A stretch of 64,000 nt of DNA from Actinomycetota bacterium (lineage in GTDB: Bacteria > Actinomycetota > CADDZG01 > WHSQ01). Shown one piece after another: positions 12,874 to 36,022 of the stretch. Position numbers and translations under genes: made by a program. The DNA is taken from the NCBI GenBank assembly GCA_009379915.1, contig WHSV01000002.1, positions 1 through 64,000 on the forward strand, written 5' to 3'. Each line of letters starts with the position of its first letter. The stretch's first letter is position 1. Under the pieces are notes generated by a model, which was not told the origin of the DNA, searched no databases, and worked only from the letters and a program-made list of their open reading frames with translations.

Positions 12874-12885
12874 GCAATCGATTGC
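12874..12885. promoter_or_regulatory. putative LacI-family operator 1 (GCAATCGATTGC)
   Basis: This is a perfect 12-bp palindrome in the gap between the divergent Mo-hydroxylase large-subunit and FAD-subunit genes. It matches the GCAAWCGWTTGC word found at four other promoters in the window. A -10-like TAGGAT (12894-12899) follows 8 bp downstream on the plus strand, so a bound repressor would cover the -35 side of that promoter. Confidence 0.8.
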
Positions 12886-12907
12886 AGCGACTATAGGATA
12901 CCGCCCT

Positions 12908-13768
12908 GTGAAGCCCAGCCCCTTTGACTACCTGGCCCCCGGAGACCTCGATGAGGCTCTCGGCGCGCTCGCCGAGCACGAGGGTGAGGCCAAGGTCCTC
13001 GCCGGCGGCCAGAGCCTGGTGCCCGCGATGAACTTCCGTCTGGCGACCCCCTCGGTGCTGGTCGATCTCAATCGGATAGAGGGCCTGGCGGAGGTGCGCG
13101 TGGGCGACGGGGAACTCGTCATCCAGTCTTTGGTGCGACACCGCGATCTCGAGATTCCCGCTACCGAAGACGCCACTGCGCTCCTGCTCGCGCGCGTGTC
13201 CCGCCTCGTGGGTCACCTTCCCATTCGCGTCCGGGGGACGGTCGCCGGCAGCCTCGCTCACGCCGATCCCGCCGCCGAATGGTGCATGCTCGCAGTCGCG
13301 CTCGACGCGACCATCGTTGCGCGCAGCGTCCGCGGCACGCGCCGTATCGCGGCGAACGAATTCTTCGAGGGGCTCTTCACCACCGCGCTTGCCGAGGACG
13401 AAATCATCACCGAGGTACGTTTGCCGTTGCTCGGCAACGCGGGCACCGGCTTTCGGGAGAAGAGCCAAACCGCCGGTGATTTTGCGACCGTGGCGACGAT
13501 CGCGGCGTGCACGCTCGACGACGGCATCGTTGCAGACGCGAGGCTTGCGATCGCGGGGGCCGGCGCGACACCCGTGAGAGCCAATCGAGCAGAATCGCTG
13601 TTAGTTGCTCGTGAGGCCACACCGGACGCGATCGCCGTCGCCTCGCGCGCAGCAGCCGAGGATGTCGAGCCGAGCTCGGATGCGAGCACATCCGCCGACT
13701 ACCGGCGACATCTCGTCGAAGTGCTCGCGCGGCGAGCTCTCGACGACGCGCTCGAGGCTGCATCGTGA
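12908..13768 (+). CDS. FAD-binding (CoxM-like) subunit of the Mo hydroxylase
   Basis: This is 286 residues from the GTG at 12908 (VKPSPFDYLAPGDLDEALGAL). This start gives the normal N-terminus; a longer frame would cross the operator and promoter. The FAD-binding motif KVLAGGQSLVPAMNFRLA (near 32) and the second motif TVAGSLAHADPAAEW (near 115) are characteristic of CO dehydrogenase medium-type subunits, followed by the CO_deh_flav_C domain with FREKSQTAGDFATVA. TAGGAT at 12894-12899 would put transcription start close to the GTG, so the mRNA may be leaderless. Its stop overlaps the GTG of the 2Fe-2S subunit. Confidence 0.88.
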   Translation: MKPSPFDYLAPGDLDEALGALAEHEGEAKVLAGGQSLVPAMNFRLATPSVLVDLNRIEGLAEVRVGDGELVIQSLVRHRDLEIPATEDATALLLARVSRLVGHLPIRVRGTVAGSLAHADPAAEWCMLAVALDATIVARSVRGTRRIAANEFFEGLFTTALAEDEIITEVRLPLLGNAGTGFREKSQTAGDFATVATIAACTLDDGIVADARLAIAGAGATPVRANRAESLLVAREATPDAIAVASRAAAEDVEPSSDASTSADYRRHLVEVLARRALDDALEAAS

Positions 13769-14253
13769 CCTCGGTGACCCTCTCGGTGAACGGCCGTCAG
13801 CACGTCGTGGAGGTCGAACCGCGGCGCACGCTGGCGGACGTCTTGAGGGACGACCTTGGCCTTCACGGCACGCACCTCGGATGCGAGCACGGGGTGTGTG
13901 GTGCCTGCACCGTGCTCGTCGATGGGGATCCCACTCGTGCCTGTCTGTTGTTCGCGGTGCAGTGCCAGGATTCCTCAATCACGACGATCGAGGGACTTTC
14001 GAAGGATGGAGCGCTGCATCCGGTCCAGCAGGCGTTCACCGACAACTTCGGCCTGCAGTGCGGTTTCTGCACGCCGGGTTTCATCATGCTCCTGGTGGGC
14101 GCGCTCGAGTCGCATTCGGTTGGGAATGATGAGGACCTGGTCGAGGTTCTCTCATCGAACCTCTGTCGCTGCACCGGGTACCGCAGCATCCTTCAGGCCG
14201 CGAAGCAGGCGGCGGCAGAACTACAGGCAGGCGCTGGTAAGGGGGCAAGATGA
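13765..14253 (+). CDS. 2Fe-2S (CoxS-like) subunit of the Mo hydroxylase
   Basis: This is a 162-residue iron-sulfur subunit. The plant-type 2Fe-2S motif [15 protein letters not shown] is near residue 41, and the second 2Fe-2S cluster has CGFCTPGF near 100 and NLCRCTGY near 135. It shuttles electrons from the Mo site to the FAD subunit. Length and layout match the family. The GTG start overlaps the TGA of the FAD subunit, and its own stop overlaps the ATG of the aldo/keto reductase, so all three plus-strand genes are coupled. Confidence 0.92.
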
Positions 14254-15227
14254 AAAGGGTTGCGCTGGGATCTCAGGGGCTCGAGGTCTCCCGAATCGGT
14301 CTGGGTTGCATGGGCATGTCGACAGCGTACGGGCCGGCCGACGATGTCGAGTCGATCGCCACAATCCATCGGGCGCTCGATCTCGGTGTGAGCTTCCTCG
14401 ACACCGCGGACATGTACGGGTGGGGACACAACGAGGAGCTGCTTGCCAACGTCGTTCGCCCGCGTCGCGACGAGGTGCAGATCGCGACGAAGTTCGGCAA
14501 CGTCATAGACGACGAGGGCAACCGCGGGATCGACGGCTCTCCCGAGCACGTGAGGCGTGCTTGCGATGCAAGCTTGAAGCGTCTGGGTGTCGAGGTGATC
14601 CATCTCTTCTACCAGCACCGAGTCGACTCCGACGTTGCCATCGAGGAGACGGTCGGTGCCATGTCCGAGCTCGTCCAGGCCGGAAAGGTGCACCATCTGG
14701 GCCTCTCGGAAGCTTCCAGCGAGACGATCGAGCGAGCGCACGCGGTGCACCCGATCAGCGCTCTTCAATCGGAGTACTCGTTGTGGACGCGGGACATCGA
14801 GTCCGACGTCCTGCCCACTTGCCGCTCGCTGGGGATCGGGTTCGTGCCCTACTCCCCCCTCGGTCGCGGATTCCTGACCGGAGCCATCACCTCGACCGAG
14901 GACCTGGCCGAGGACGACTGGCGCCGGCACCACCCTCGCTTCCAGCAGGGAAACATCGAGCGCAACCGTGAGCTGGTCGCTCGCATCGAGGAGCTCGCCG
15001 CCACAAAGAGAGTGTCGACCTCCGAGCTGGCGCTCGCATGGGTCATGGCTCAGGGCGACGACGTAGTGCCCATCCCCGGCACGAGGCGAATCAAGAACCT
15101 CGAGTCGAACGTGCGAGCGGTGGATGTCCACCTCGGCGACGAGGATCTGGCGGCTCTAGACGAGGCCGCGCCTCCGGGTGCCGCCGCGGGAAACCGCTAT
15201 CCCGACATGAGCGCGGTCAACCGCTAG
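14250..15227 (+). CDS. aldo/keto reductase
   Basis: This is a 325-residue NADPH-dependent (beta/alpha)8 barrel that reduces aldehydes or ketones. The catalytic set is visible: Asp and Tyr in [15 protein letters not shown], Lys in IATKFGNV, His in FYQHRVD. The AKR12/13-like N-terminus ([16 protein letters not shown]-type) and the C-terminal nucleotide loop [11 protein letters not shown] are intact. It is translationally coupled to the 2Fe-2S subunit (ATGA) and so shares its operator-controlled promoter. It may act on the product or substrate of the hydroxylase; that is inferred from the operon only. Confidence 0.9.
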
Positions 15228-15234
15228 GGCCATC

Positions 15235-15565: not shown

Positions 15566-15571
15566 ACACAC

Positions 15572-16546
15572 CTACTGCTCCTTGACGACCGTGTCGACGA
15601 TTCGTTCGACGGACGGAATCGCCTCGTCCTCGAGCGTCTCTGCAGCCGGAAGCGGTACGTGCGGCGTCGTGATGCGCACGATAGGACCGTCGAGGTCGTA
15701 GAACGCTTCCTCGGCGACTATCGACGAGATCTCGGCCCCCCAGCCACACAGCCTCGGGTTCTCCTCGACCGTGAAAACCCGTCCCGTTGCACCTACGGCC
15801 TCGAGGATCGTGCTCATATCGAGCGGCACCAGCGAGCGAAGGTCCACGACGCGACAACCGATGTCGTGCTCGACGCGCAACCGCTGAGCGGCCTCCAGAG
15901 CCTTGGGCACCATCGACGCCAGGGCGATGAGAACGACGTCGTCTCCGTCACCGTGAACCACCGCACGGCCCAGAGGCTCGACGTGCTCGTCGTCGGGGAC
16001 CTCGCCCTTGGTGGCATAGAGCGACTTCGCCTCGAGGAACACGACGGGATCGTCGTCGCGTATGGACGCCGCGAGCAGACCCTTGACGTCGGCGGGCGTC
16101 GATGGAGCGACGACCTTCAGACCGGGTATGGCCATGGCCCAGTTCTCGACGGCCTGGCTGTGCTGCGCTCCGAAGCGGAGACCACCGCCGTTCGCGCTGC
16201 GAAGCACGAGCGGCAACGTAACTTGCCCGTTCGTCATGTAGCGCGTCTTGGCGACCTGGTTGGCCACGATGTCCCAGCAGGTGGCGAAGAAGTCCGAGAA
16301 CATGACCTCGCCCACGGGACGAAGCCCGGCCATCGCCGCTCCCATGACCGCTCCGACGATCGCCTCCTCGCTGATCGGGGTGTCGCGTACGCGACGCGGG
16401 CCAAAGGTCTCGAGGAGACCGCCCGTCGTCTTGAAGACTCCTCCCGCGGCCGCGACATCCTCGCCGATGAAGTAGACGTTGTCGTCGCGCCTCATCTCCT
16501 GCGCGATCCCCGCCGCCACCGCGTCCCTGTAGGTCAGTTCCGCCAC
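15572..16546 (-). CDS. 2-oxoacid dehydrogenase E1 component, beta subunit
   Basis: This is a 324-residue transketolase-like subunit of a pyruvate, acetoin or branched-chain 2-oxoacid dehydrogenase. Motifs: YFIGEDVAAAGGVFKTTGGL near the N-terminus, EEAIVGAVMGAAMAGLRPVGE, and the C-terminal domain VFTVEENPRLCGWGAEI. It overlaps the E1 alpha gene by 14 nt. No E2 or E3 gene lies in the window, so the pair must use partners encoded elsewhere or act as a stand-alone decarboxylase/ligase. Family call firm; substrate unknown. Confidence 0.9.
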   Translation of the reverse strand: MAELTYRDAVAAGIAQEMRRDDNVYFIGEDVAAAGGVFKTTGGLLETFGPRRVRDTPISEEAIVGAVMGAAMAGLRPVGEVMFSDFFATCWDIVANQVAKTRYMTNGQVTLPLVLRSANGGGLRFGAQHSQAVENWAMAIPGLKVVAPSTPADVKGLLAASIRDDDPVVFLEAKSLYATKGEVPDDEHVEPLGRAVVHGDGDDVVLIALASMVPKALEAAQRLRVEHDIGCRVVDLRSLVPLDMSTILEAVGATGRVFTVEENPRLCGWGAEISSIVAEEAFYDLDGPIVRITTPHVPLPAAETLEDEAIPSVERIVDTVVKEQ

Positions 16547-17547
16547 TGAGAACCCCCGTCGGCCCAGACGTCCGTGTAGATGAGGTCCTTGGAGGGCGGA
16601 GGCGCGGCTTTCGCTTCCTCGGTGGCGCGATTCACCTCGACGAGGACCTGCGCGTCGATGTCATCGAGCACCGCGGCTTCGAATCCGAGTTCGAGCAGAC
16701 GCGCGCGGTACAAATCGATCGGATCACGCGCCAGCCAGGACTCGACTTCCTCGGGGGGCCTGTACTTCGCGGGATCGGCGCGGCTGTGCCCGCCCTTTCG
16801 GTAGGTCTTGGCCTCGATGAGGGCGGGCCCCTCCCCCGCCCGGGCGCGTTCGATGTAGGTGGTTGCGATTCCGTAGACCTCGTCGACGTCGTTGCCGTCC
16901 ACGATCAGTGGCTCGAGACCGTAGGCCGCGGCGCGTTGAGCAGCGGGATGCTCGACGGCCGTCACCGACGAGATGGGTGTGTACTCCATGTAGAGGTTGT
17001 TCTCGCACACGAACACCACCGGTAGCTTCCAAACCGTCGCCAGGTTGATGGCCTCGTGAAAGGCGCCGATGTTCGTGGTTCCGTCACCGAAGAAGCAGAC
17101 GGCCACCTGACCCGTGCCGCGCTCCTGCGCGGCCCACGCGGCCCCCGCTGCTATCGGGAGATGCGCTCCGACGATCGCGTACGAACCCATCGCGTAGTGC
17201 TCGGTGCTGGTCAGGTGCATTGAGCCGCCCTTGCCCGCAAGGATGCCGTTGGAGCGACCGAGTAGCTCGGCCATGAGTCCGGTCATGGATGCGCCCCGGA
17301 CCAGCGTGTGGGCGTGTCCCCGGTAGGTGCAGAAGCTGAAGTCGTCGTAGCGCATCGCGGCGCCGAAACCCGCGGCGACCGCTTCCTGTCCGAGCGACAG
17401 ATGACTTGTGCCCTTCACGAGGTTCTGCAGGAAGAGGTCGTAGGCGCGCTGCTCGAACTGGCGAATTGCCGACTGCTTGCGATAGAGGTCCAGGCGCGTT
17501 GTCTCGTCGAGCTTCGCCTCGTCCGCCCAGCCCTCCGGCCTCTCCAT
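16534..17547 (-). CDS. 2-oxoacid dehydrogenase E1 component, alpha subunit
   Basis: This is a 337-residue TPP-binding subunit that decarboxylates a 2-oxoacid and forms the hydroxyalkyl-TPP intermediate. The TPP/Mg motif GDGTTNIGAFHEAINLATVW (near 174) continues to CENN at the correct distance. The phosphorylation-loop-like region TYRKGGHSRADP (near 266) and YRGHAHTLVRGASM (near 74) are present. Its ATG overlaps the stop of the upstream dehydrogenase gene and it overlaps the E1 beta start, so the three genes form one unit running from the operator at 18539. Confidence 0.9.
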   Translation of the reverse strand: MERPEGWADEAKLDETTRLDLYRKQSAIRQFEQRAYDLFLQNLVKGTSHLSLGQEAVAAGFGAAMRYDDFSFCTYRGHAHTLVRGASMTGLMAELLGRSNGILAGKGGSMHLTSTEHYAMGSYAIVGAHLPIAAGAAWAAQERGTGQVAVCFFGDGTTNIGAFHEAINLATVWKLPVVFVCENNLYMEYTPISSVTAVEHPAAQRAAAYGLEPLIVDGNDVDEVYGIATTYIERARAGEGPALIEAKTYRKGGHSRADPAKYRPPEEVESWLARDPIDLYRARLLELGFEAAVLDDIDAQVLVEVNRATEEAKAAPPPSKDLIYTDVWADGGSQWRN

Positions 17548-18494
17548 CAGGCGTCCTCATCCGTCAATCCGTCCGACACGTCGGCGTCCTCCGGCTCGAG
17601 CTTCAAACCCGACGCGGCCGCCTCCTGCTCGAGCAGTACCGCGAAGTCGTCATCGAGGTAGCCGCGCCCGATGAGGCTCTGAACGATTTCGTGCGTGAGA
17701 GCGGCGAGCGGCATCGGCACATCGAGCTCGCGGGCGGCCTCCAGGCCGAGGTCGAAGTCCTTGCGCAACAGAACCGGAGTGAACGTGGGGCGATAGTCGA
17801 GATTCACGAAAGCGGGCGTCTTGTAGCGAGTGAACACCGATCCCATGACGCTCTTGTTCAGGAACTCGAGAAAGGCGCTGCGCTCGAGTCCGCCTTTCTC
17901 CGCCAGGACCGTGATCTCGGCCATGCATTGGGTCACGATTCCCAGCATCAGGTTGTGGCAGATCTTCGCCAGGCGCGCGGCGTCGGCATCGCCCACGTAG
18001 GTGCTGCCTGCTCCGAGCAGGTCGAGGTACGGCCGGGCGGTCTCGAACGCATCGGCCGGTCCCGAGACGACCAGCGTCAGCTTTCCGCTCGCCACGACCT
18101 CGGGATTGCCGCTGACCGGGGCGGCCAGAAGCTTGGTTCCGACCTTGTCACCGGCCACCCTCACCTCGGCGGACATGCCGGCCGAGATCGTCGTCGAGTC
18201 GACCAGGACCTTTGGCGCTGCGCCCTCCTGCGTGAGCAAGCCCTTGTCGCCCAACGTGATCTCGCGGAAATCATCGTCGCTCGAGACCATCGTGAACACG
18301 ATGTCGCAGTTCGCCAGCTCGGCCGGCGAATCCACGAGCACACCCCCCTCGGCGGCCAGGGGCTCGGCCTTCGCCCTCGTCCGGTTGTAGACGGACAGGT
18401 CGCATCCCGCCGCCAACAGGCGCTCGGCCAGCTTGAAGCCCATCCGGCCGGTACCGATCCAGCCGAGTTTGTGCCTCAGATCGTTCTCAACCAT
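17547..18494 (-). CDS. NAD(P)-dependent 3-hydroxyisobutyrate dehydrogenase-family oxidoreductase
   Basis: This is 315 residues from ATG 18494, which gives the standard N-terminus (KLGWIGTGRMGFKLAERLL). Rossmann motif GTGRMG; substrate motif region DSTTISAGMSAEV; catalytic lysine in ARLAKICHNLMLGI. The family oxidises beta-hydroxyacids such as 3-hydroxyisobutyrate, glycerate or tartronate. The C-terminal tail is acidic and longer than usual. It is the first gene of the operon with E1 alpha and E1 beta; the putative LacI operator 18539-18550 lies 45 nt upstream. A product semialdehyde would have suited the decayed aldehyde dehydrogenase downstream. Confidence 0.9.
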   Translation of the reverse strand: MVENDLRHKLGWIGTGRMGFKLAERLLAAGCDLSVYNRTRAKAEPLAAEGGVLVDSPAELANCDIVFTMVSSDDDFREITLGDKGLLTQEGAAPKVLVDSTTISAGMSAEVRVAGDKVGTKLLAAPVSGNPEVVASGKLTLVVSGPADAFETARPYLDLLGAGSTYVGDADAARLAKICHNLMLGIVTQCMAEITVLAEKGGLERSAFLEFLNKSVMGSVFTRYKTPAFVNLDYRPTFTPVLLRKDFDLGLEAARELDVPMPLAALTHEIVQSLIGRGYLDDDFAVLLEQEAAASGLKLEPEDADVSDGLTDEDA

Positions 18495-18538
18495 GTTCGG
18501 CCCTCTCGAGAGCGCTGGCCAACCTTCGTACATCCTGT

Positions 18539-18550
18539 GCAAACGATTGC
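18539..18550. promoter_or_regulatory. putative LacI-family operator 2 (GCAAACGATTGC)
   Basis: This 12-bp near-palindrome lies 45 nt upstream of the 3-hydroxyisobutyrate dehydrogenase-like gene, in the short gap after the amidohydrolase gene. It differs from the other four copies only at the W positions of GCAAWCGWTTGC and shares the flanking AG seen at three others. Confidence 0.78.
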
Positions 18551-18593
18551 AGGGTACCGCGAGGACGCGAGGGGGCGCAAGCGATGGCGTCCT

Positions 18594-19604
18594 CTATCCA
18601 CGGTCTTCCGTGAGCTCGATGCCCAGGGCGGCAAGCACGTTCGCGCCGAGAATCGCCCGCGTGGGGTCGTCGCCCAGCTCGGCCCTGCGGACCGTCATCA
18701 CCGGCTCGGGATCTCCCATGGGGAAGGGATAGTCGCTGCCGAGAACCACGCGATCTTCGCCCACGCGTTCGACCAGAAAGTGCAGTGCCTCGACTCCGTG
18801 AACCACGGTGTCGTAGTAGAAGCGTCGCAGGAGGCTCGAAGGAGGCACGCTCAGGTTTCTGCGAGTCCGCTTCCCCACCGACTCGAAGCCACGGTCCTGC
18901 CGGCCGATCTGGTAGGGCAGGAAGCCACCTCCGTGCGTCAGACAGACCTTCAGGTCTCGGTGGCGCTCCAGCACACCCCCGTAGATAAGGTGCGCGGCCG
19001 CGACCGTCTCCTCCGCAGGATTGCCCACGATGTTGTTGAGGAAGTAGCGAGACAGCCGTTCCGAACCGATTGACGCATAGGGATGGACGAGGACCAGCAC
19101 GTCCAGCTCCTCCGCCGCGCTCCAGAAGGGATCCAGCGCGTCGTCGTCGAGCTCCTTGTCGACTACCGAGGTCGCAATCTCGACCGCGACCATGCCCAGC
19201 TCGCGCACCGCGTACCTGAGTTCCTCGACAGCGAGATCAGGAGCCTGCAGCGGCACCGCAGCCATCGCCCAGAAGCGTTCGCCGTGCTTCGAGATCGTCT
19301 CGACGGTGGTCTCGTTCAGCGAACGAGCCAGCCATGCGCCGTCGGCCGGGTCGAGCACGTACGCGGAGAAGTCCATCCACGCCGACAGCACCTGCACGTC
19401 GACACCCTGGTCGTCCATCCACCTCAGTCGCTCGTCGAGGTCGAGCATGCCTTTGGGGAGGCTCTGGGTCGCGTCCCGCCCGGCGAAAGAGACGGTGCCC
19501 GCGCCGGTGAGCTCGACCGAGTGTCTCGCTCCTTCGGTCTCGATCTGGTCCAGGAGGCTCTGCGGAATGTAGTGACAGTGCAGGTCGATGCTCGGGCCGT
19601 TCAC
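18594..19604 (-). CDS. amidohydrolase 2-family (ACMSD-like) metal-dependent hydrolase/decarboxylase
   Basis: This is a 336-residue TIM-barrel protein. Metal and active-site residues are visible: N-terminal HxH in IDLHCHYIPQSL, His in LVLVHPYAS, His in CLTHGGGFLPYQIGR, and the final Asp in VVLGSDYPFPMGDP. This group includes 2-amino-3-carboxymuconate semialdehyde decarboxylase and related enzymes acting on ring-cleavage products. Its GTG start overlaps the stop of the LVIVD-repeat gene, giving a two-gene operon behind the operator at 20876. Decarboxylase versus hydrolase cannot be settled from sequence. Confidence 0.88.
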   Translation of the reverse strand: MNGPSIDLHCHYIPQSLLDQIETEGARHSVELTGAGTVSFAGRDATQSLPKGMLDLDERLRWMDDQGVDVQVLSAWMDFSAYVLDPADGAWLARSLNETTVETISKHGERFWAMAAVPLQAPDLAVEELRYAVRELGMVAVEIATSVVDKELDDDALDPFWSAAEELDVLVLVHPYASIGSERLSRYFLNNIVGNPAEETVAAAHLIYGGVLERHRDLKVCLTHGGGFLPYQIGRQDRGFESVGKRTRRNLSVPPSSLLRRFYYDTVVHGVEALHFLVERVGEDRVVLGSDYPFPMGDPEPVMTVRRAELGDDPTRAILGANVLAALGIELTEDRG

Positions 19605-20770
19605 GACCGGGCCTCCTCCATTGCCTTCGAAAGGCTCTCGTCGGGGGCCAGAACGTAAAGACCCCCACCAATCCGATCCGAGACGAAGATGTTGTGGGAG
19701 GCATCGACCAAGACGTCGTTGATCTGTGGCGCCTCCTGTCCGTCCGGTGTCTCGGGCACCCAGAAGCCGGCCTCGATCGGCGCGGCCGGATTGGTTATGT
19801 CGTACACGCGCAGCCCGGCATTGAAGTAGGTCACGAACATCAGGGTCTCGCTCCGGTAGGTGCCGGGCCGGTTCTCGTGAAGGTTGTGGGGGCCGAACCT
19901 GAGCCCGCGATCACAGTAATCTCCGTCCGGCTGAGGGCATTGCCCGACGACTCGAGGGGAATGGACGTCGGACACGTCGATTACGCGCACCAGCTTGGTC
20001 TCTTCGGCGCAGCGGTTCGCCACCGCCTCATCGGTCGCCACCACTAGATTCCTGCCGGGCAGCGGAAGGCAGGTGTGCGTCTCTCCACCGGGGCTCCACG
20101 ACAAATCCGACAACTTTCTGGGATGTTCGATGTCTGAGATGTCGAGCACTACCATTCCGGCGTCTCCATAGCCCAGATACGCAACTTGGTCGTCGATGAG
20201 AGCGTGATGCGCGGCGTAGCGTTTCGTGCCCGGCCACGATGGGGACTCCCCTCCACCGCGCCACATCCCGGGCCACCACCAGCGCCCAACCTCGGTAGGG
20301 CTTGTCGGATCATCGAGGTCGACGATCACCCAGATCCGATCGTCGAAACCATCGGGGATGGCGGACATGTACGCGTAACGACCGCCGGCGTAGACGATGC
20401 GGTGCACACCGAGCCCACCCGATTCGAAACGTCCGATCGGCTTGGGATCGAGAGCATCGCTGAGCTCGTAGACCAGCATGCCAGCCGAGAACTCTTGCGC
20501 GCCTTGAAACTGCTCCTCGTTCACCAACAGGAGGTCGTCTGCCGTCTGGACCTTGTGGGAGTGCGAACCCGCCGCAGCGGGAATCTGTCGCACGAGCTCC
20601 GGCTTCCGGGGATCACCAACGTCGAGCACCGAGGTGGCCATGCCACTCGGGCCCATGTGGCCGACGTAGAGAGCATCGCCCTGACGCATTATCTGCATGC
20701 CGTCCCCGCGGCCCGCGAGATCGTTGTGGCCGACCAGCTCGAGCCGGTGGCTCTCTCTGGTCCCGCTCAA
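19601..20770 (-). CDS. LVIVD-repeat beta-propeller protein
   Basis: This is 389 residues from a TTG at 20770, chosen because GAGGAG sits 5 nt upstream and the protein then begins near the conserved region (ESHRLELVGHNDLAGRGDGM). Repeats of the form VLDVGDPRKPELV, VDLDDPTSPTEVG, LDISDIEHPRKLS, IDVSDVHSPRVVG and YDITNPAAPIEAG mark a LVIVD beta-propeller. No signal peptide is evident. Such proteins are found in catabolic clusters but have no settled function; a sensing, scaffolding or lyase-like role is possible. It is coupled to the downstream amidohydrolase and diverges from the LacI regulator. Confidence 0.82.
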   Translation of the reverse strand: MSGTRESHRLELVGHNDLAGRGDGMQIMRQGDALYVGHMGPSGMATSVLDVGDPRKPELVRQIPAAAGSHSHKVQTADDLLLVNEEQFQGAQEFSAGMLVYELSDALDPKPIGRFESGGLGVHRIVYAGGRYAYMSAIPDGFDDRIWVIVDLDDPTSPTEVGRWWWPGMWRGGGESPSWPGTKRYAAHHALIDDQVAYLGYGDAGMVVLDISDIEHPRKLSDLSWSPGGETHTCLPLPGRNLVVATDEAVANRCAEETKLVRVIDVSDVHSPRVVGQCPQPDGDYCDRGLRFGPHNLHENRPGTYRSETLMFVTYFNAGLRVYDITNPAAPIEAGFWVPETPDGQEAPQINDVLVDASHNIFVSDRIGGGLYVLAPDESLSKAMEEARS

Positions 20771-20875
20771 GTCAACTCCTCTACGTTCGACTCGTTCGGC
20801 TCGATTCGCTCGACTCCCGTCTCTCGCCACAGGTGGTCCATCCCGATCGCCCCCGGCCATTGCACCGGCCTGGTG

Positions 20876-20887
20876 GCAATCGTTTGC
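20876..20887. promoter_or_regulatory. putative LacI-family operator 3 (GCAATCGTTTGC)
   Basis: It lies in the divergent gap between the LVIVD-repeat gene and the LacI-family regulator gene. TATTCT at 20890-20895, right after it on the plus strand, could be the -10 of the regulator promoter, so the site could serve autoregulation and control of the minus-strand pair. Confidence 0.8.
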
Positions 20888-21020
20888 AGTATTCTCAGCG
20901 TAATCACAAGTCTGTCAAGCACGAGGCACTCAAATACGGTGCCCGCGTCGACGCGACACTTACAGTCGCTGGCAAGTTGCAGATGTCGATCTAGCGAAAG
21001 CGAGCCCTGGGGAACCAAGA

Positions 21021-25999: not shown

Positions 26000-26005
26000 C
26001 TGTGC

Positions 26006-27019: not shown

Positions 27020-27050
27020 GTACTAGGGAATCTCCTTTGGTTGCCGAGCG

Positions 27051-28760
27051 CTAGCCCTTGTCGTAGAAGCGCCACCGCAGCGTCTTCCAGAGCGGGTTGT
27101 AGACAAAGCCGTCAACCCATTCCCGGTAGGCCTGCGCGTTCACCTCCTGCGCCGGATAGATCCACATCGGGTCCTCGTAGAGCATGGGCAGCAGTTCCTG
27201 GTATATCGCCTCACGCTCGGCTACGTCGGTGGTGGCGAAACCAGCGTCGATGAGCTCGGCGATCTCGTCCGGGTTCTCGTAACCGTTGGCGAAACCGAGG
27301 CGCTCGCCCCACTCACCCTCGGGGTGCTGATAGGTCGACAGGTAGTAGTGAGGATCCACAAAGGGGTCCGCGTTCTTGATCCACATCGCGTACTCGAACG
27401 GAGAGGCACCGTGTGCCTCGTCGAATTGGCTTTCGGACACGGTCCGCACGTTGATCCTGAATTCCGGGTTAAGCGCTTCGATGCTGTCCTTGAGGATCAG
27501 TCCGATCGGCTCGAACGCGGGGTTGTCCTCGACCAGCACCGAGACCGAGAAGCCCTCGTCCCACACCCCGGCGTCCCTGAACAGCTGCTCGGCTTGTTCG
27601 AGGTCCTGCGAGTACACCGGAGCGTCCGGGTCGTATCCGAGGACGCCCGGCGGAATGTACGTCGCCGGCTCACCGAGGCCGCCCAGGATCCCGTCGATGA
27701 AGGCGTCGTAGTCGAACGCGAAGTTAAACGCCTGCCTGATTCTCCTGTCGTGGAAGAAGTCCGTCGGGATCGTGTCGCCGCTCGGAAGAGCACCCTCCGG
27801 AATGTTGAGGTTGAAGGCGAGCTGGAAGGGCTCGAGGAGCAGACCACCGGTATCGAGAACGACTCCCTCCGCGTCCTCGAGCTCCGGGGCGAAGGTTGGC
27901 TGGAACTGGATCGCGTCGTAGTCGCCGGCCCTGAGACCGAGCACGATCGCGCTCTCCTCCGGGACGTTCTGCCAGCGAGCATCGAGCGTCGCCGGCTCAC
28001 CCCAGTAGTCATCGAAGACCTCGAAATTGAGCTGCTCGTTCCGCTCCCAGGAGATGAACTCGTGGGGGCCGGTTCCCACCATGTTCCCGTCCATGAACTC
28101 GTTCGGCTCATCGGCGGTCACTCCCCCATTGCTCTCGACCGCTTCCATGCTGACGATCGCGGCGGGAGTCGAATACACGACGGAGCTGACGAAGGCCGCG
28201 TTCGGTTGCTGGAGCGTCACCTCGAACGTGAAGTCGTCGACGGCGCGGGTCTCGGCGATCGTGTCGCTGAGCGTGCTCGCCTGCCCCTCCGGGAGGTTCA
28301 TCTCCATGGCTCGGTCCCATGAGTACTTGACAACCTCGGCCGTGAGCTCCGAGCCGTCGTGGAAGGTAACTCCCTCGCGGATGGGGAAGGTGTAGGTCAG
28401 GCCGTCTTCGGACACGAGACCGTTCTCCTCGGTCGGCACCTCGGACGCGAGCGCGGGTATGGGCTCCGGTCCATCGGGACCGATGTCAACCAGGAACTCG
28501 TAGACTTGGATGATGGCCTGCTCGCCGTACTCGCCGAGCGCGGCGCGAGCGGGGTCAAGAGTCGTGGGCTCCCCATCGAGGGCGTGGACGAACACCCCCG
28601 GGTTATTGACGTCACCACCCGCGTCCTCGCCGCCCAGCTCCTCCGTGTCCGTGGCCGCCCCGTCGCATGCGGCCGCCAACAGCAGAGCGGCGGCCACCAG
28701 GGCCCATCTCGCAAGCACCGACTTCCTTCTGGTAGCGGACCCTCCCATGACCCATCCCAT
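27051..28760 (-). CDS. peptide ABC transporter substrate-binding lipoprotein (SBP_bac_5, OppA/DppA-like)
   Basis: This is a 569-residue extracytoplasmic binding protein. The lipoprotein signal peptide ends at LLLAAAC with Cys 32, followed by an acidic Gly-rich linker. SBP_bac_5 landmarks: VFVHALDGEPTTLDPARAAL, YTFPIREGVTFHDGSELTAE, MVGTGPHEFISW and the C-terminal YQELLPMLYEDPMWIYPAQ. The ATG at 28760 has AAAGGAG at good spacing. It is the first gene of the transporter operon and diverges from an M24-family gene across operator 4, so import and catabolism are probably switched together. Ligand unknown. Confidence 0.93.
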   Translation of the reverse strand: MGWVMGGSATRRKSVLARWALVAAALLLAAACDGAATDTEELGGEDAGGDVNNPGVFVHALDGEPTTLDPARAALGEYGEQAIIQVYEFLVDIGPDGPEPIPALASEVPTEENGLVSEDGLTYTFPIREGVTFHDGSELTAEVVKYSWDRAMEMNLPEGQASTLSDTIAETRAVDDFTFEVTLQQPNAAFVSSVVYSTPAAIVSMEAVESNGGVTADEPNEFMDGNMVGTGPHEFISWERNEQLNFEVFDDYWGEPATLDARWQNVPEESAIVLGLRAGDYDAIQFQPTFAPELEDAEGVVLDTGGLLLEPFQLAFNLNIPEGALPSGDTIPTDFFHDRRIRQAFNFAFDYDAFIDGILGGLGEPATYIPPGVLGYDPDAPVYSQDLEQAEQLFRDAGVWDEGFSVSVLVEDNPAFEPIGLILKDSIEALNPEFRINVRTVSESQFDEAHGASPFEYAMWIKNADPFVDPHYYLSTYQHPEGEWGERLGFANGYENPDEIAELIDAGFATTDVAEREAIYQELLPMLYEDPMWIYPAQEVNAQAYREWVDGFVYNPLWKTLRWRFYDKG

Positions 28761-28885
28761 CCCTGGGCTCCTTTCCTGCCGTTCCCCGATGAGACCCCGC
28801 GGCTCCGACCCCTCCTACAGACCGGCTAACGGTGACGTCGACCACGGTGCCTTGGCGGGCATCCTATGTAATCGCCCGCAGCTAT

Positions 28886-28897
28886 GCAAACGTTTGC
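28886..28897. promoter_or_regulatory. putative LacI-family operator 4 (GCAAACGTTTGC)
   Basis: This perfect 12-bp palindrome lies in the gap between the divergent binding-protein gene and the M24-family gene. TATCGT (28898-28903) directly follows on the plus strand and may be a -10 element. One site here could control both the transporter operon and the five-gene plus-strand catabolic operon. Confidence 0.82.
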
Positions 28898-28945
28898 TAT
28901 CGTCTGGGTTCCGCCCCCCGCCACCGAGAGGAGAGCGCCGAAGCA

Positions 28946-30241
28946 ATGCGAGCGACCGACTTCGCCGAGGCCCGTGCCGCCATCGACGACATGGGGAACT
29001 TTGCCAATCTGACCAACACGGGATGGCACCACGATGCCGTCTACGAGACCTTCTCGGATGCCGAGTACCGTCGCCGCTACGAGGCGGTATACGCCCAGAT
29101 GGACGCTCTGGGACTCGACGCACTGATCGTCGGAGGGGGGCCGAGCCACTGGAGCTCGGGCGGGGGCATGCTGTGGCTTACGGGGCACTGGGAGTGGCAC
29201 GCCCTGGCCTGTTACGTGCTCGTCCCCCGCCGGGCCGAGCCCGTTCTCGTCTACTCCATGGGTGGCAGCCACCTCGAGTCGATCCGGCTGCTGTCGTGGG
29301 TGACAGACGTCCGTCCCTCGATGGGCGGACGCTTCGGCCGCGTGCTCGCGGAGGCGATCGTGGAAAAGGGTCTCGATCGCGGCCGCATCGGCCATCCACC
29401 GATAGACACGCGCCACATGGATTACATGCCCCTGAATCAGTACCGCGACCTTCAAGACGCGTTGCCGGATGCGGAGCTTGTGCTCACCGACGACATATTT
29501 CACGACCTCTTCGTCGTGAAGTCGGCCGAGGAGCTCGACTGCGTTCGCGTTGCGGGCCGGTTGTGCGTCGACGCGTTCGGTGCCATGGTCGATCGCGCCC
29601 GCCCCGGCGCCACTGAAGAGGACCTGCGAGCAGCCGCGGCGAGCGCGATCTATGAGGGGGGCGGAGAGGTCGACTTCCTCATCATTGGTTCCACCTCCAC
29701 CCACGAGCCCCATCTCATCTTTGGCAATCCTCGCCCCTCCCGTCGCGCTCTGAAAGACGGAGACGTTGTCCTGAACGAACTGGCGGCCGGCTATCGCGGC
29801 TATACGGCTCAGATCGGGATGCCGATCTTCGTCGGCGAACCCGAGGGGTCAGCGCGCCGGTTCTTCGAAGAGGTTACGCTGCCGGGTTTCCTGAGGATAG
29901 AAGCGGAGCTGCAACCCGGCAGGACGATGAACGACGTCGAGCGCGCGGCTCGCTTCTTCAGGGACAACGGCTACCAGTCGCGGCCGATCCACCTGCACGG
30001 AATCGACCTCGTGACAGGCCCCCCTCACGTGTACGTGGGCCACGGGTCCGACGAAGTGATACGCCCCGGCCAGGTCCTGATGCTCGAGCCCAATCCCATA
30101 CGCGCGGACGGCAACCTCGGCATGTTCTTCGGCCACACCTACATCGTCACCGAGACCGGCAGCGAGAGAATCACCGACTACCCGCTCGATATCGTGATCA
30201 CGAAAATAGACAGGAAGGAGAGACGTGACTCAGCGCATTGA
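28946..30241 (+). CDS. M24-family (creatinase/Xaa-Pro peptidase-fold) protein lacking metal ligands
   Basis: This is 431 residues from ATG 28946 (GAGAGGAG upstream); a longer frame would include the operator. Creatinase_N domain (residues about 40-190) and pita-bread M24 domain follow. At the five canonical metal positions (D, D, H, E, E) I read Asn 277 (VVLNELAAGY), Gln 289 (YTAQIG), His 351 (HLHGID), Glu 381 (LMLEPNP) and Gly 396 (FFGHTYIVTE). Three ligands are therefore lost, which argues against a metallopeptidase. Creatinase itself is a metal-free member that hydrolyses a C-N bond. It is the first gene of the plus-strand operon with two hydrolases, a flavoprotein and a permease. Confidence 0.85.
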   Translation: MRATDFAEARAAIDDMGNFANLTNTGWHHDAVYETFSDAEYRRRYEAVYAQMDALGLDALIVGGGPSHWSSGGGMLWLTGHWEWHALACYVLVPRRAEPVLVYSMGGSHLESIRLLSWVTDVRPSMGGRFGRVLAEAIVEKGLDRGRIGHPPIDTRHMDYMPLNQYRDLQDALPDAELVLTDDIFHDLFVVKSAEELDCVRVAGRLCVDAFGAMVDRARPGATEEDLRAAAASAIYEGGGEVDFLIIGSTSTHEPHLIFGNPRPSRRALKDGDVVLNELAAGYRGYTAQIGMPIFVGEPEGSARRFFEEVTLPGFLRIEAELQPGRTMNDVERAARFFRDNGYQSRPIHLHGIDLVTGPPHVYVGHGSDEVIRPGQVLMLEPNPIRADGNLGMFFGHTYIVTETGSERITDYPLDIVITKIDRKERRDSAH

Positions 30242-31190
30242 GCGGCCCGCCGGGTGGCGCTTCCACACCGGGAAGCCCGTCGTCGAGCCACTCGACTTCG
30301 TCACCGACCTTGAGGGCGAGCCCCCACTGTCGTTGCACATGATCTACACGCTCGACGGTGCCTACGTCCCAGCCGTCGTGCGCCAACCGGGGGCGCCCCC
30401 ACCGTGGCCGGCGGTCATCTGCTTTCACGGCGGATCGGGCGGCCTCGGTCACTCGTTTCTCGTCGAGCAGATGCGCAACCGGGGCTGGTTGTTCGATCGA
30501 CTGGCCGACGAGGGCTACCTGGTCTGCAACGCCGAGGGCCGAATGGAGAACGAAGACCAGTACGACAAGGATCTCCCGGCCGTCCTCGACCATCAGGACG
30601 TGGCCGAGGTCTTTCGCTACGTTCAGCGTCTCTCCGTCGTCGACCCGCAGAGAATCGGAACCTTCGGCGTCAGTCACGGAGGGGAGATTCAGATGAAGCT
30701 CATGGCCGAGATCGGTGAGGGTCCCGCGGCCATGGTCCCCAGCGAGCCCGCGGTGATCGAGTTCCTCGGTCTCCAGCACGAGGGAGGCGCCGACGAGGGC
30801 TGGGCTGTCGAGGACAGCTCAGGCCCCCGCGTCGAGGAGAAGCTCCAGTTCCGGCACGACGTGTCGGATGACGAGATCGACTTCCCCGCGGCGTGGGAAC
30901 GAATCCAACGCATCTCGGATGACGTTCGAATCCTCGTGCTTGGTCGAGACGACGACCACCTCCAGGGTCTCTTCAAGAAACTGCACGAGCTCCTCACGCG
31001 GGCGGGCAAACAGGCCGAGTGGGCGACCTTCGATCATCCAGAGCACGCCTATCACTGGGGGCCCGAACGCAGCGGGCGTGGCTATGAACCGGACGACATC
31101 CAACAGGCAACGATTGATCGCCTCATCGAGTTCCTGAACGCCAACGTGCGAGACCTCTCGAGCCGGCCGGTCGTAGAGCCGGCCACCTGA
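30225..31190 (+). CDS. alpha/beta hydrolase (prolyl oligopeptidase/dienelactone-type)
   Basis: This is a 321-residue serine hydrolase. The oxyanion region AVICFHGGSGGLGHSF, nucleophile elbow GTFGVSHGGEIQ (Ser near residue 154) and candidate catalytic His in DHPEHAYHWG are visible. The acid may be in RILVLGRDDDH. The GTG start overlaps the 3' end of the M24-family gene by 17 nt, so the two are coupled. Substrate may be an ester, amide or lactone formed during catabolism of the imported compound; this is inference. Confidence 0.87.
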   Translation: MTQRIERPAGWRFHTGKPVVEPLDFVTDLEGEPPLSLHMIYTLDGAYVPAVVRQPGAPPPWPAVICFHGGSGGLGHSFLVEQMRNRGWLFDRLADEGYLVCNAEGRMENEDQYDKDLPAVLDHQDVAEVFRYVQRLSVVDPQRIGTFGVSHGGEIQMKLMAEIGEGPAAMVPSEPAVIEFLGLQHEGGADEGWAVEDSSGPRVEEKLQFRHDVSDDEIDFPAAWERIQRISDDVRILVLGRDDDHLQGLFKKLHELLTRAGKQAEWATFDHPEHAYHWGPERSGRGYEPDDIQQATIDRLIEFLNANVRDLSSRPVVEPAT

Positions 31191-31207
31191 GAGTTCGGGG
31201 CGCTCCC

Positions 31208-32266
31208 ATGGACGACCGAGTAGCGAGCGCGATTGCGCACTGGAAGCCGCGCTTCACCGCGAACGGAATCGCGGCATCCGACTTCGAGCGGATCACGCAC
31301 GACCTCCAATGCTGGGATGAATGGTGCGGCGCGTGGTCGCGCGCCGGACGGGAGCACGAGGACCTCGGTCGCGAGGCCCTGGCCGCTCACCGTGCGCTTT
31401 CGGCGGGGGCGCATCTGCGGCAGGCGGCCGTCCTGTACCACTTCGCCAAGTTCGTGTTCGTAGAGGATCCCGACCAGATGAGGAGTGCACACATGAGCGC
31501 CGTGGGGTGTCTCACCGATGCCCTGCCCTATCTCGACCCGCCCGGCGAGCGGCACGAGATCCCCTTTGAAAACGGCGCTCTCGTCGGGATCCTTCGGAGA
31601 CCGTCCGGCAGCGGCCCGCACCCCGTCGTGGTGCTCGTGCCCGGGCTGGACTCGGCGAAGGAGGAGTTCGCGCCCACGGAAGATCTTTTCCTCGAGCGAG
31701 GCCTGGCGACCTTCTCCGTTGACGGGCCGGGCCAGGGGGAAGCGGAGTACGACCTGGCGATCAGGGGTGACTGGGAGGTCCCGGGTTCTGCGATCGTCGA
31801 TTACCTCTCGGCGCAAGGCGGCATTGACCCTGATCGAATCGGATTGTGGGGGGTGAGTCTCGGGGGTTACTACGCGCCACGAATCGCCAGCGGAGTCGCC
31901 GGCATCCGGGCGTGCATCGCGCTGGCGGGACCCTACGACTTCGGTTCCATCTGGGACGGCCTCCCCGTGCTCACACGCGAGAGCTTTCGGGTTCGTTCGA
32001 AGGTCGACACCGAGGACGATGCGCGGGGTCACGCCCAAAGCCTGTCCCTCGAGGGACGAGCCGGGGCCATCACCGCTCCGCTCCAGATCGTCATGGGCAA
32101 GCAAGATCGTCTGATCCCATGGCAACACGCGCAGCGACTGGCGGACACGACCGGCGGCGAGGCCTGCCTTCTGTTGCTCGAAGATGGCAACCACGGCTGC
32201 GCCAACGTCGCTTACAAGCACCGCTATCGAAGCGCCGACTGGATGGTTCGGCGACTCACAACCTGA
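31208..32266 (+). CDS. alpha/beta hydrolase resembling FrsA / 2,6-dihydroxypseudooxynicotine hydrolase
   Basis: This is a 352-residue hydrolase with an all-helical N-terminal domain of about 115 residues and a C-terminal alpha/beta domain. Motifs: VVVLVPGLDSAKEEF oxyanion loop, nucleophile elbow GLWGVSLGGYYAPR, acid in VMGKQDRLIP and His in EDGNHGCANVAYK. This domain order is that of the FrsA-like family, which includes the C-C bond hydrolase of nicotine breakdown. The assignment to that branch is from overall layout, not an alignment. It follows the first hydrolase by 17 nt and precedes the flavoprotein gene. Confidence 0.87.
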   Translation: MDDRVASAIAHWKPRFTANGIAASDFERITHDLQCWDEWCGAWSRAGREHEDLGREALAAHRALSAGAHLRQAAVLYHFAKFVFVEDPDQMRSAHMSAVGCLTDALPYLDPPGERHEIPFENGALVGILRRPSGSGPHPVVVLVPGLDSAKEEFAPTEDLFLERGLATFSVDGPGQGEAEYDLAIRGDWEVPGSAIVDYLSAQGGIDPDRIGLWGVSLGGYYAPRIASGVAGIRACIALAGPYDFGSIWDGLPVLTRESFRVRSKVDTEDDARGHAQSLSLEGRAGAITAPLQIVMGKQDRLIPWQHAQRLADTTGGEACLLLLEDGNHGCANVAYKHRYRSADWMVRRLTT

Positions 32267-32295
32267 AGCGCGGCCGGGAGATCGAGGAGCGGTCA

Positions 32296-33837
32296 ATGCA
32301 GGAACCAGACGTCGTCGTTGCGGGGGCCGGACACAACAGCCTGATAGCCGCCGCGTATCTCGCCGTTGCGGGTCTGCGAGTGACCGTGCTCGAGGCGCGC
32401 GACGTAATCGGGGGAAACACGGTTACCGAGGAACTGACGCTTCCCGGATACCTGCACGATTCGTGCTCGAGCGCTCACGTTCTCATTCAGTCCAACCCGC
32501 TTATGCGCAACAACGAACTGCGTCTCGACCGCTACGGCCTGCGCTACGTTTTCACGGACCCCCCGTTGGTCATGCCGTTCCCCGACGGCGCGAGCATCAC
32601 GATGTGGCGCGATCGAGATCGCACCGCGAGCGAGCTCGAGCGCTTCTCGCCGGGCGATGCGAAGTCGTATTTGAATCTACTTACCGAGTGGGACGAGCTG
32701 AAAGCGCACCACGGCTTCCTGAGTAATTCGCCTCCGAGCGCGTCCACGGTGGACTCAGATGTGGGCCGGCGCTACGCGCGCCTGAATGCTCGCAGCGCGA
32801 AGGAGGTCATCTTCGATCGCTTCGAGGACCCGCACGTTCGTTCCCTGCTCATGTGGCTCGCGTTCGCCACGATTCAAGATCCCGAACGCCCCGGCACGGG
32901 CATCCTTCCCATGTCGGTGACCGCGGGACGACAGGAGTTCGGGTGGGCCACGCCCATCGGCGGCTCGGGAATGCTCCCGCAGGCTCTCCGCCAACTCATC
33001 GAAGACAACGGCGGCAGCATCGTCACCGGCTCACCGGTGACCGAGATAACGGTCACCAAAGGACGAGCGTCGGGCGTCGCTACGGCCGATGGAACGAGGT
33101 ACCCGGCGCGGCGGGCGGTGCTGTCGACGATCCACGCCGCGCTGCTCCCGGAGGTCCTGCCTGAGGGTTCCCTGCCAGCTTCGTTCGTGTCACGCGTACG
33201 AAGTTGGAAGCCCGGGTTGACGCTCTTCGCGGTTCACCTCGCGCTCCGTTCGAAACCGAGGTTCAAGACGGACGGGGGACTGCGGGGTTCGGTCGCGGGA
33301 GCCATCGGCTCGTCCGATGGGCTTCTCGCGCAGATCGAGGCGCATCGCTCCGGACTGACCGACGAGCGCGACCCCTGGGTGCTCGTCGTCAATCCGTGCG
33401 AGGTGGACCCGGCGCGCGCTCCGAACGGGGGCGCGACCCTGAAGCTGCTCACCATCGCGCCACGGAGTCTCGACGGGGCCGATTGGACAACCGAGAAACA
33501 TCGTTTCGCCACAAAGCTGGTCGAGCTCGCGGCCTCTCGGATGGACTTCGAGGAGGACGACATCCTCGCGCTTACACCCGAGAGCCCAATCGATCTCGAA
33601 GAGCGCAATCCACACAACCTGTGGGGATCCTGTCACGGGGGTGAGCTGTCCGCCGAGCAGTCCGGAGTCAATCGGCCGGCCCCCGGCTACTCAACCTATC
33701 GAATGCCGGTCGACGGGCTCTATCAGACCGGGGCGACGACTCACCCTGGTGGCTCCGTGTCGGGACGGCCGGGTCGGAACGCCGCGCGCGTCCTGCTCGC
33801 CGACCTCGGTCTCGACCCGGACCTGGTGGTGGTGTGA
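32296..33837 (+). CDS. phytoene desaturase-like NAD(P)/FAD-dependent oxidoreductase
   Basis: This is 513 residues from ATG 32296, with GAGGAG 6 nt upstream; the open frame further upstream is antisense-like composition and is left out. The dinucleotide motif VVVAGAGHNSLIAAAYLAVA and EARDVIGGNTVTEE define the phytoene desaturase/PYROXD2-like amine-oxidase superfamily. The C-terminal FAD motif is DGLYQTGATTHPGGSVSGRPG. Members desaturate or oxidise C-C or C-N bonds. The next gene starts within its stop region (GTGTGA), showing coupling. Probably one oxidation step of the regulon's substrate. Confidence 0.9.
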   Translation: MQEPDVVVAGAGHNSLIAAAYLAVAGLRVTVLEARDVIGGNTVTEELTLPGYLHDSCSSAHVLIQSNPLMRNNELRLDRYGLRYVFTDPPLVMPFPDGASITMWRDRDRTASELERFSPGDAKSYLNLLTEWDELKAHHGFLSNSPPSASTVDSDVGRRYARLNARSAKEVIFDRFEDPHVRSLLMWLAFATIQDPERPGTGILPMSVTAGRQEFGWATPIGGSGMLPQALRQLIEDNGGSIVTGSPVTEITVTKGRASGVATADGTRYPARRAVLSTIHAALLPEVLPEGSLPASFVSRVRSWKPGLTLFAVHLALRSKPRFKTDGGLRGSVAGAIGSSDGLLAQIEAHRSGLTDERDPWVLVVNPCEVDPARAPNGGATLKLLTIAPRSLDGADWTTEKHRFATKLVELAASRMDFEEDDILALTPESPIDLEERNPHNLWGSCHGGELSAEQSGVNRPAPGYSTYRMPVDGLYQTGATTHPGGSVSGRPGRNAARVLLADLGLDPDLVVV

Positions 33838-34580
33838 GCCTCGAGCTCGACACCGTTCTGATAATGGTGGTGGCGATATCGCTCGGCGGCCTCGTCAAGG
33901 GAGTAACCGGGCAGGGTTTGCCGCAGATCGCGATCCCGGTCATGGCCACGTTTCTCGGCGTGGAGGCCGCGGTCGTCATCATGACGATCCCCGGAATCGT
34001 CACCAACTCGTGGCTGATGTGGAAACACCGTCACCACTTCGGCGGTACGCGCGACCTGCCGGTCCTCCTGGTCACGGGAACCGCCGGAGTCGTGGCCGGG
34101 ACCATCCTGCTCGACAGCCTCAACGACAAGGTCCTCTCCTTGACGCTGGCGAGCGTGATCGTTGGCTACGCGGTCATCTTCTTCACCCACCCCAGCCTTC
34201 GGCTCGAACCTGAGGTCACGCGCTACACATCGGCGCCGCTCGGTGTGGCCTCCGGGGTGCTCCAGGGAGCCACGGGTGGGTCGGGTCCGCTGCTTGCCAC
34301 CTATCTTCACGGCTATCGCCTGGACAAGCAGGTCTACGTCATCTCGATCACGACCATCTTTCAGGTCTTCGCGGTGGTGCAGTCGGTCACGCTGTTAGGA
34401 GTCGGGCTCTACACGACCGAGCTGTTCTTCTTGAGCCTGTTGTCTCTCATTCCCATCATGGCGATGCTGGGAGTCGGAGTGCGCCTCACCGACCGGATTT
34501 CGCGACGGACCTTCGACCTGATCGTGCTGGCGGTGCTCCTCGCAACCGCAGTGAAGCTCATCTTCGACGGGCTCACCTAA
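33834..34580 (+). CDS. TSUP (TauE/SafE) family permease
   Basis: This is a 248-residue protein with about eight membrane segments. The family hallmark repeats are GLVKGVTGQGLPQIAIPVMA near the N-terminus and GVASGVLQGATGGSGPLLATY in the middle. TSUP proteins move small organic or sulfur anions such as sulfite, sulfoacetate or organic acids, often as exporters. The GTG start overlaps the flavoprotein stop. As the last gene of the operon it could remove a waste anion or import a substrate. Ends 8 bp before the convergent M24-family gene. Confidence 0.9.
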   Translation: MSLELDTVLIMVVAISLGGLVKGVTGQGLPQIAIPVMATFLGVEAAVVIMTIPGIVTNSWLMWKHRHHFGGTRDLPVLLVTGTAGVVAGTILLDSLNDKVLSLTLASVIVGYAVIFFTHPSLRLEPEVTRYTSAPLGVASGVLQGATGGSGPLLATYLHGYRLDKQVYVISITTIFQVFAVVQSVTLLGVGLYTTELFFLSLLSLIPIMAMLGVGVRLTDRISRRTFDLIVLAVLLATAVKLIFDGLT

Positions 34581-34588
34581 CCTCGCGC

Positions 34589-35935
34589 CTACTTCGGTGC
34601 GGCCGCCCCTTCACCTTTCGCGCTCTGCGTCACCGCCTCGGTCGTGGCGCGATTGAGCGGAGACTGTGTTTCGCGCGTCGTCGGGAGGGGGCCGGTGGCG
34701 GTGTAGTAGCGCTGTCCCGCGACCATGAGCTGCTCTGCGGGGAAGCGGGTAATGACCTCGGACCCGTCCGCCGTGACCACGAGCTGCTCCTCGATGCGGG
34801 CGGCCGACCATCCATCGGCCGCGGGCCAGAAGGTCTCGAGCGCGAAGACCATGCCCTCCTCGATGGGCTCTGGGTGGTCGAGCGATACGAGCCTGCTGAA
34901 AACGGGCTTCTCCCAGATCGACATGCCGACGCCGTGCCCGAACTGCAGGGCGAAGGCGGCCTCCTCGTCGGGGAAACCGAAATCCTCCGCCTTGGGCCAG
35001 ACCTCTACCACGTCGGCCGTCGTCACGCCCGGTTTGATGAGTGCGATCGCCTCGTCGAGCATGGCCCTGCATCGGACGTATGCGTCAACCTGAACCTGCG
35101 ACGCGCTTCCTATTGCGAAGGTCCGGTAGTAACAGGTCTTGTAACCCATATAACTGTGGAGTATGTCGAAATACGCAGGGTCGCCGGGTCGCAGAACGCG
35201 GTCGGTGTAGACGTGCGGGTGCGGGTTGCAGCGCTCTCCTGAGATGGCATTGACACCCTCGACGAACTCGGAGCCCAGATCGTAGAGAACCTTGTTCACC
35301 AACGCGACGCACTCGTTCTCTTTTATCCCCGGCTTCATGGCGCGGTAGAGCTCCTCGTACGCGGCATCGACCATCATGCACGCGGTGTTCAGAAGAGTTA
35401 TCTCATCCTCGGTCTTGATGACCCGCGCCCTCTGCATGAGCTGTTGCCCGTCGACGACCTCGATGCCCTCGGCCTGGAGTGCAAAGAGTACGGGGAGCTC
35501 GATGGCATCGACGCCGACCGGGTCGCCGAGAAGACCGCGCTCCTCGAGCTCGACGCGGACCTTCTTGGCCACGTCCTCCGCTCGTCCCGACTCGGGCGAC
35601 ATCGCCCCGCGCAGAGTTGAGATGCCGGCGCGCGACCTCTCCCCCAGCCATGGATTGTAGAGCTGATGATGCCGCGCGGCCGAGCCGAAGTCCCACATGA
35701 TCGGCTCGTCGCCTCTTGGGAGCAGACAGAAGCGGTTGAGCTTGTCCTGAGCCCAGGTCCCGATATGCGTCGCCGTTATGTAGCGGATGTTGTTCATGTC
35801 GAAGCACAACAGCGCTCCGCACTCGGAGTGACTCAGAACGTCCTTGGCGCGCTCGAGCCGCTGCGTTCGCAGCCGGCCCATGTCGACGCGCTCCTCCCAG
35901 TCGACGTTCATCAGCCCAAAGGTCTTGAGGCCCAT
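34589..35935 (-). CDS. second M24-family (creatinase/DddP-like) protein
   Basis: This is 448 residues; the ATG has GAGGAG upstream. The N-terminal domain (LLCFDMNNIRYITATHIGTW...IMWDFGSA) resembles the subgroup that contains the DMSP lyase DddP and creatinase-like enzymes. In the catalytic domain, metal positions read Asp 257, Cys 268 (in YKTCYYRTF, where Asp is expected), His 334 (FGHGVG), Glu 367 and Glu 382. One ligand is thus replaced by Cys, so standard aminopeptidase activity is doubtful. It is a single-gene unit preceded by operator 5. Confidence 0.87.
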   Translation of the reverse strand: MGLKTFGLMNVDWEERVDMGRLRTQRLERAKDVLSHSECGALLCFDMNNIRYITATHIGTWAQDKLNRFCLLPRGDEPIMWDFGSAARHHQLYNPWLGERSRAGISTLRGAMSPESGRAEDVAKKVRVELEERGLLGDPVGVDAIELPVLFALQAEGIEVVDGQQLMQRARVIKTEDEITLLNTACMMVDAAYEELYRAMKPGIKENECVALVNKVLYDLGSEFVEGVNAISGERCNPHPHVYTDRVLRPGDPAYFDILHSYMGYKTCYYRTFAIGSASQVQVDAYVRCRAMLDEAIALIKPGVTTADVVEVWPKAEDFGFPDEEAAFALQFGHGVGMSIWEKPVFSRLVSLDHPEPIEEGMVFALETFWPAADGWSAARIEEQLVVTADGSEVITRFPAEQLMVAGQRYYTATGPLPTTRETQSPLNRATTEAVTQSAKGEGAAAPK

Positions 35936-36010
35936 GTGACTCCTCGGTGTCGTTTCCTCAGCGTAAGCCCGTGGTTCGCGCGACGACGAGCGTGCGTCCC
36001 CCCGTCTGCC

Positions 36011-36022
36011 GCAATCGTTTGC
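36011..36022. promoter_or_regulatory. putative LacI-family operator 5 (GCAATCGTTTGC)
   Basis: It lies 76 nt upstream of the second M24-family gene and marks the right edge of the regulon; the next gene, gatB, is housekeeping and ends toward it. The core is identical to operator 3 near the regulator gene, including the following AG. Confidence 0.78.

Follow-up and report, generated by a model that had tools for sequence, protein, structure and literature searches.

Regulators of the LacI family have been surveyed on a large scale, with more than 1300 of them covered and their local regulons reconstructed (Ravcheev et al. 2014, PMC4052901). In this survey, 72% of the regulators are autoregulated, most sites are even palindromes with a CG centre, and most lie 30-140 bp before gene starts (PMC4052901). 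Among the 182 groups with assigned pathways, 176 (96%) control carbohydrate metabolism (PMC4052901). Here, we describe a gene island in a 64-kb stretch of DNA (the window, i.e. the whole stretch that was analysed) from a genome of 3.39 Mb, which is assembled in 158 contigs and 95% complete. The palindrome GCAAWCGWTTGC occurs exactly at 12874, 18539, 20876, 28886 and 36011, the positions reported in a preliminary description of this DNA, and the window holds no other copy. Comparison of the sequences makes it very probable that these five palindromes serve as operators for the LacI-family protein encoded at 21021-22046, which would form an autoregulated local regulon. The protein is most likely an autoregulated local repressor of this family, although we infer both its binding and the repression it would exert.

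Predicted operators and transcription units

A site heads each of the transcription units between 10594 and 35935. That is, eight units with 21 genes (the regulator's own gene, lacI, included) share five sites, with operon membership assigned from strand and spacing. In order along the window, the units and predicted operators are:

10594 to 12840, minus strand: molybdenum hydroxylase large subunit
12874 to 12885: predicted operator 1, GCAATCGATTGC, in the divergent gap between the Mo-hydroxylase large subunit (minus) and the FAD/2Fe-2S/AKR operon (plus)
12908 to 15227, plus strand: operon of the FAD subunit, the 2Fe-2S subunit and an aldo/keto reductase (AKR)
15572 to 18494, minus strand: operon of a HIBADH-like reductase, PDH-type E1 alpha and E1 beta
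18539 to 18550: predicted operator 2, upstream of the HIBADH-E1alpha-E1beta operon (minus); in 8 genomes, no other 12-mer upstream of HIBADH is as well conserved
18594 to 20860, minus strand: operon of an LVIVD beta-propeller protein (start may be 20770) and an ACMSD-like amidohydrolase_2
20876 to 20887: predicted operator 3, between the LVIVD-amidohydrolase operon (minus) and lacI (plus)
21021 to 22046, plus strand: LacI-family regulator with HTH (PF00356), Peripla_BP_3 and recognition helix VHAGTASRALN
22417 to 28760, minus strand: Opp/Dpp-type ABC transporter operon (SBP, two permeases, two ATPases)
28886 to 28897: predicted operator 4, between the Opp-type transporter operon (minus) and the M24a operon (plus)
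28946 to 34580, plus strand: operon of M24a, two alpha/beta hydrolases (the second DHPON-hydrolase-like), a flavoprotein and TauE
34589 to 35935, minus strand: M24b, a DddP-like M24-fold protein in which a canonical metal ligand is missing
36011 to 36022: predicted operator 5, upstream of M24b (minus); sites upstream of M24b also occur in the relatives G003, G007 and G031

The preliminary description had counted at least seven units. Its units are indeed headed by sites, but the AKR is not a separate one: it shares an operon with the two small Mo-hydroxylase subunits, and the count therefore becomes eight with lacI. Its placement of the sites in promoter gaps, never inside a gene, stands, as all five are intergenic once starts are set by homology and coding score. 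Longest-ORF starts at 12848 (GTG), 18542 (TTG) and 28832 (GTG) would overlap three of the sites, and the homologous parts of these proteins start downstream of the sites. Three of the five operators sit in divergent gaps, and site-to-start distances range from about 20 to 135 bp. Operator 3 lies 134 bp before lacI, giving the regulator the site in its own upstream gap that had been described.

On the other hand, the -10-like hexamer reported after three of the copies proved weak. A promoter scan found one sigma-70-like hit (TTGACA-16-GAGAAT, minus strand, 20918-20891), in the gap of operator 3, and no sigma-70-like consensus in the other four gaps. This hit ends a few bases before operator 3, with the operator just downstream, so that a dimer bound there would, by this geometry, cover the transcription start. 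Near the island, an FMN-dependent 2-hydroxyacid dehydrogenase-like gene (7387-8529, minus strand) lies without an operator; its homologs adjoin the LacI ortholog in loci L071 and L072 and adjoin M24b in G003 (L062).

The regulator, its paralogs and the conservation of the sites

By its domains, the protein belongs to the LacI/GalR family: PF00356 scores 47.9 bits (cut-off 27), and PF13377/PF00532 are also above their cut-offs. Its gene is the only one of the family in the window, as previously noted, and one of four in the genome, the other three being on contigs C2, C78 and C149. These three paralogs provide an alternative, in which the sites are LacI-family operators read by, or shared with, one of them; LacI paralogs often have a CG-centred core in common. 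Yet the recognition helices of the paralogs (VSPATVSRVL, VDRSVVSRVL and VSKTTVSNAY) differ from that of the regulator, whose orthologs have VHx[GSA]TASRALN in common, a form absent from all three. Moreover, no exact intergenic copy of the word lies near a paralog, and across genomes the presence of sites follows that of the window's LacI ortholog. We therefore regard reading by a paralog as improbable.

Orthologs of the window's regulator are 74, 67 and 58% identical to it in three genomes of the same family, and 54-57% identical in Acidimicrobiia and Thermoleophilia MAGs. More distant orthologs (57% and 53%) occur in two genomes of the phylum, where members of the same gene families also have sites in their promoter gaps. 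Among 24 genomes of the class, the four with the regulator or an ortholog (58-100% identity) have 6, 4, 8 and 4 exact sites, whereas the twenty without it have 0-2 each, five in all; the rank probability of this co-occurrence is ~1e-4, for relatives that are not fully independent. Site conservation in related clusters is strong: in G001, G003, G007, G031 and G057, sites in promoter gaps adjoin or precede orthologs of the same genes, even across separate contigs, and this extends to genomes from other genera and families. For example, the Mo-hydroxylase large subunit is preceded by a near-identical counterpart of operator 1 in G007 (GCAATCGGTTGC) and also in G031, and a site identical to operator 4 lies between SBP and M24a in G003. 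The predicted autoregulatory site at lacI likewise occurs in G003, G007 and G001, and in imperfect form in G031. Some distant lacI orthologs have no good site of their own; G057 and the MAGs have sites on neighbouring genes.

To avoid circularity, footprinting was also carried out motif-free, comparing each 12-mer upstream of the window genes with ortholog gaps. The best 12-mer upstream of HIBADH overlaps the operator (2 mismatches in total across 7 orthologs, two of them from Acidimicrobiia MAGs), and the operator-overlapping 12-mer is also the best conserved upstream of the Mo-hydroxylase large subunit, lacI, the LVIVD-amidohydrolase operon and SBP. For M24b, the operator is not the top motif-free 12-mer; one ortholog is near a contig end and another is apparently inside an operon. 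Acidimicrobiia orthologs use ACAAWCGWTTGC.

Relatives also have unexplained exact copies (e.g. G003:C44, which precedes an HD/LuxR-type gene, and G007:C331, which falls within a frame). Sites are present in G014 with no close LacI ortholog; in relatives lacking the ortholog, its absence could be due to assembly gaps. In the same genome (L068, 412-6441), the LVIVD-amidohydrolase cluster is kept and an exact site lies right where an ABC ATPase frame begins; this may be an operator if the start of the frame is misplaced. A two-piece broken fragment in G003 (L062, 7807-8252), 54-75% identical to the LacI protein and closely followed by an exact operator and TauE, is apparently a decayed duplicate of the regulator.

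Form and rarity of the word

The motif is an even palindrome with a central CG, as in LacI sites. Its consensus over 23 sites is TGCAAWCGWTTGCA-like, with the 12-bp core exact by selection and a flanking T at 70%. Perfect or near-perfect 12-bp palindromes in gaps might also be some other repeat, such as a mobile/intergenic repeat, an RNA hairpin/terminator or a methylation signal. This is highly improbable: conservation of the flanks stops after one extra T/A, no terminator-like feature was found at the sites when the five gaps were scanned, and the copies are restricted to a single island and, among genomes, to those that have the LacI ortholog.

Consistent with operators of one local regulator, the word is rare. 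Under a first-order Markov model of the window, 0.010 copies are expected per window and 0.55 per 3.39-Mb genome, and the probability of at least five copies in the window is ~1e-12. Among palindromic 12-mers in the window with W flanking a CG, GC, AT or TA centre, the GCAAWCGWTTGC family counts 5 and the runner-up 2. The genome was searched for the exact word, the word with one mismatch and the 10-mer core CAAWCGWTTG. Six exact copies were found, five of them the island sites, which span 23 kb around lacI (reversed-pattern control: 0), and the sixth, at C18:5077, is within a frame of 527 codons that looks like an aldehyde dehydrogenase gene. The core has seven copies genome-wide; the additional one, at C134:37370, is within a 357-codon frame that appears to encode a LuxR-like C-terminus. 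Since both copies outside the island are intragenic, no promoter gap outside it has even the 10-mer core. That is, the equally good matches at unrelated promoters that would have spoken against a local regulon are absent from the exact and core searches of the genome. With one mismatch and free central positions, the genome search was uninformative (138 matches vs 212 in the reversed control). A one-mismatch site at 50018 was not accepted as an operator. Chance clustering of a common word, which the count with two mismatches allowed might suggest, being no higher than in shuffles (10 matches vs 6.4), is already refuted by the exact copies (5 vs 0.01 expected) and their conservation across genomes.

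Gene products, proposed control and comparison with described regulons

The amidohydrolase has ACMSD as its closest relative (3e-56) and retains the aligned His and Asp that we take to be the metal ligands of such enzymes. For the second alpha/beta hydrolase, the closest relative is 2,6-dihydroxypseudooxynicotine hydrolase (1e-50), and Ser, Asp and His align between the two. E1 is of the PDH type, and in G031 the operator is at an E2 gene. Canonical M24 proteins (prolidase type) bind metal through D, D, H, E and E. This set is incomplete in both island proteins, the second Asp being replaced in M24b and several ligands in M24a (28946-30241), and their orthologs likewise lack the canonical ligands. 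Peptide catabolism by M24 prolidases was rejected because both proteins lack this set. At full length, M24b is nearest to a chain that is presumably DddP; its NCBIfam DddP score is 126 bits (cut-off 600), and two Asp are replaced among the ligands we assume for DddP. A true DddP (DMSP lyase) was rejected, the score being far under the cut-off. With 81-89% identity across three other genera, M24b ranks among the best conserved proteins in the island.

The transporter beside the operator varies: it is of the Opp type here and in G003, of the Liv type in G001, G003, G057 and an Acidimicrobiia MAG, and of the MFS type in G031. Transporters exchanged for Opp (Liv-type or MFS) lie at L053 8069-9325, L061 7960-9213, L058 5207-6502, L071 8562-9974 and L056 1786-2979. 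Going by the enzyme relatives, our guess is that the substrate may be a small nitrogen-containing or ring-cleavage-derived compound. Tentatively, then, the regulator might serve a non-carbohydrate pathway, possibly for an amino- or N-containing ring-cleavage-type compound, with two M24-fold enzymes that have ceased to be ordinary metallopeptidases and with uptake systems (Opp, Liv or MFS) that can replace one another.

Without effector, a dimer of the regulator would probably bind each operator, close to the promoter or overlapping it, and block transcription, in three gaps in both directions. A small molecule derived from the substrate (non-sugar, perhaps amino- or ring-cleavage-derived) could bind the Peripla_BP-type domain and release the regulator. 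Release would switch on uptake through the Opp-type transporter together with catabolism by the Mo-hydroxylase, the ACMSD-like decarboxylase, the C-C hydrolase-like enzyme, HIBADH, E1 and the M24-fold enzymes. The earlier proposal of a master switch of one catabolic island fits this picture, in which repression, effector and pathway are all putative. If the non-carbohydrate reading is true, the effector would belong to a class new to LacI proteins. A clean, testable signal would join 21 loosely annotated genes into one pathway, and co-regulation would be a strong guide to what the M24-fold, ACMSD-like and C-C-hydrolase-like enzymes act on.

Among described subfamilies, the best NCBIfam matches of the regulator are in the RbsR/CytR/PurR/CcpA branch (RbsR 232 bits, CytR 207, PurR 206, CcpA 203). 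Unlike members of these subfamilies, it scores far under all of their equivalog cut-offs (382-501 bits), and the genes under its predicted control differ. A literature search for LacI-type control of aromatic/peptide catabolism found nothing directly comparable in the collection searched, which is weak evidence. In its architecture, the locus resembles local LacI regulons: an HTH with a periplasmic-binding-protein-like domain, a CG-centred even palindrome, predicted autoregulation, targets clustered around the regulator, and site distances in keeping with those published (PMC4052901). Unlike 176 of the 182 surveyed groups with assigned pathways (PMC4052901), the island has no carbohydrate enzyme evident among its genes. 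Altogether, the control mechanism would be standard and well known, and it is the gene content that is unusual, non-sugar targets being rare in described LacI regulons.
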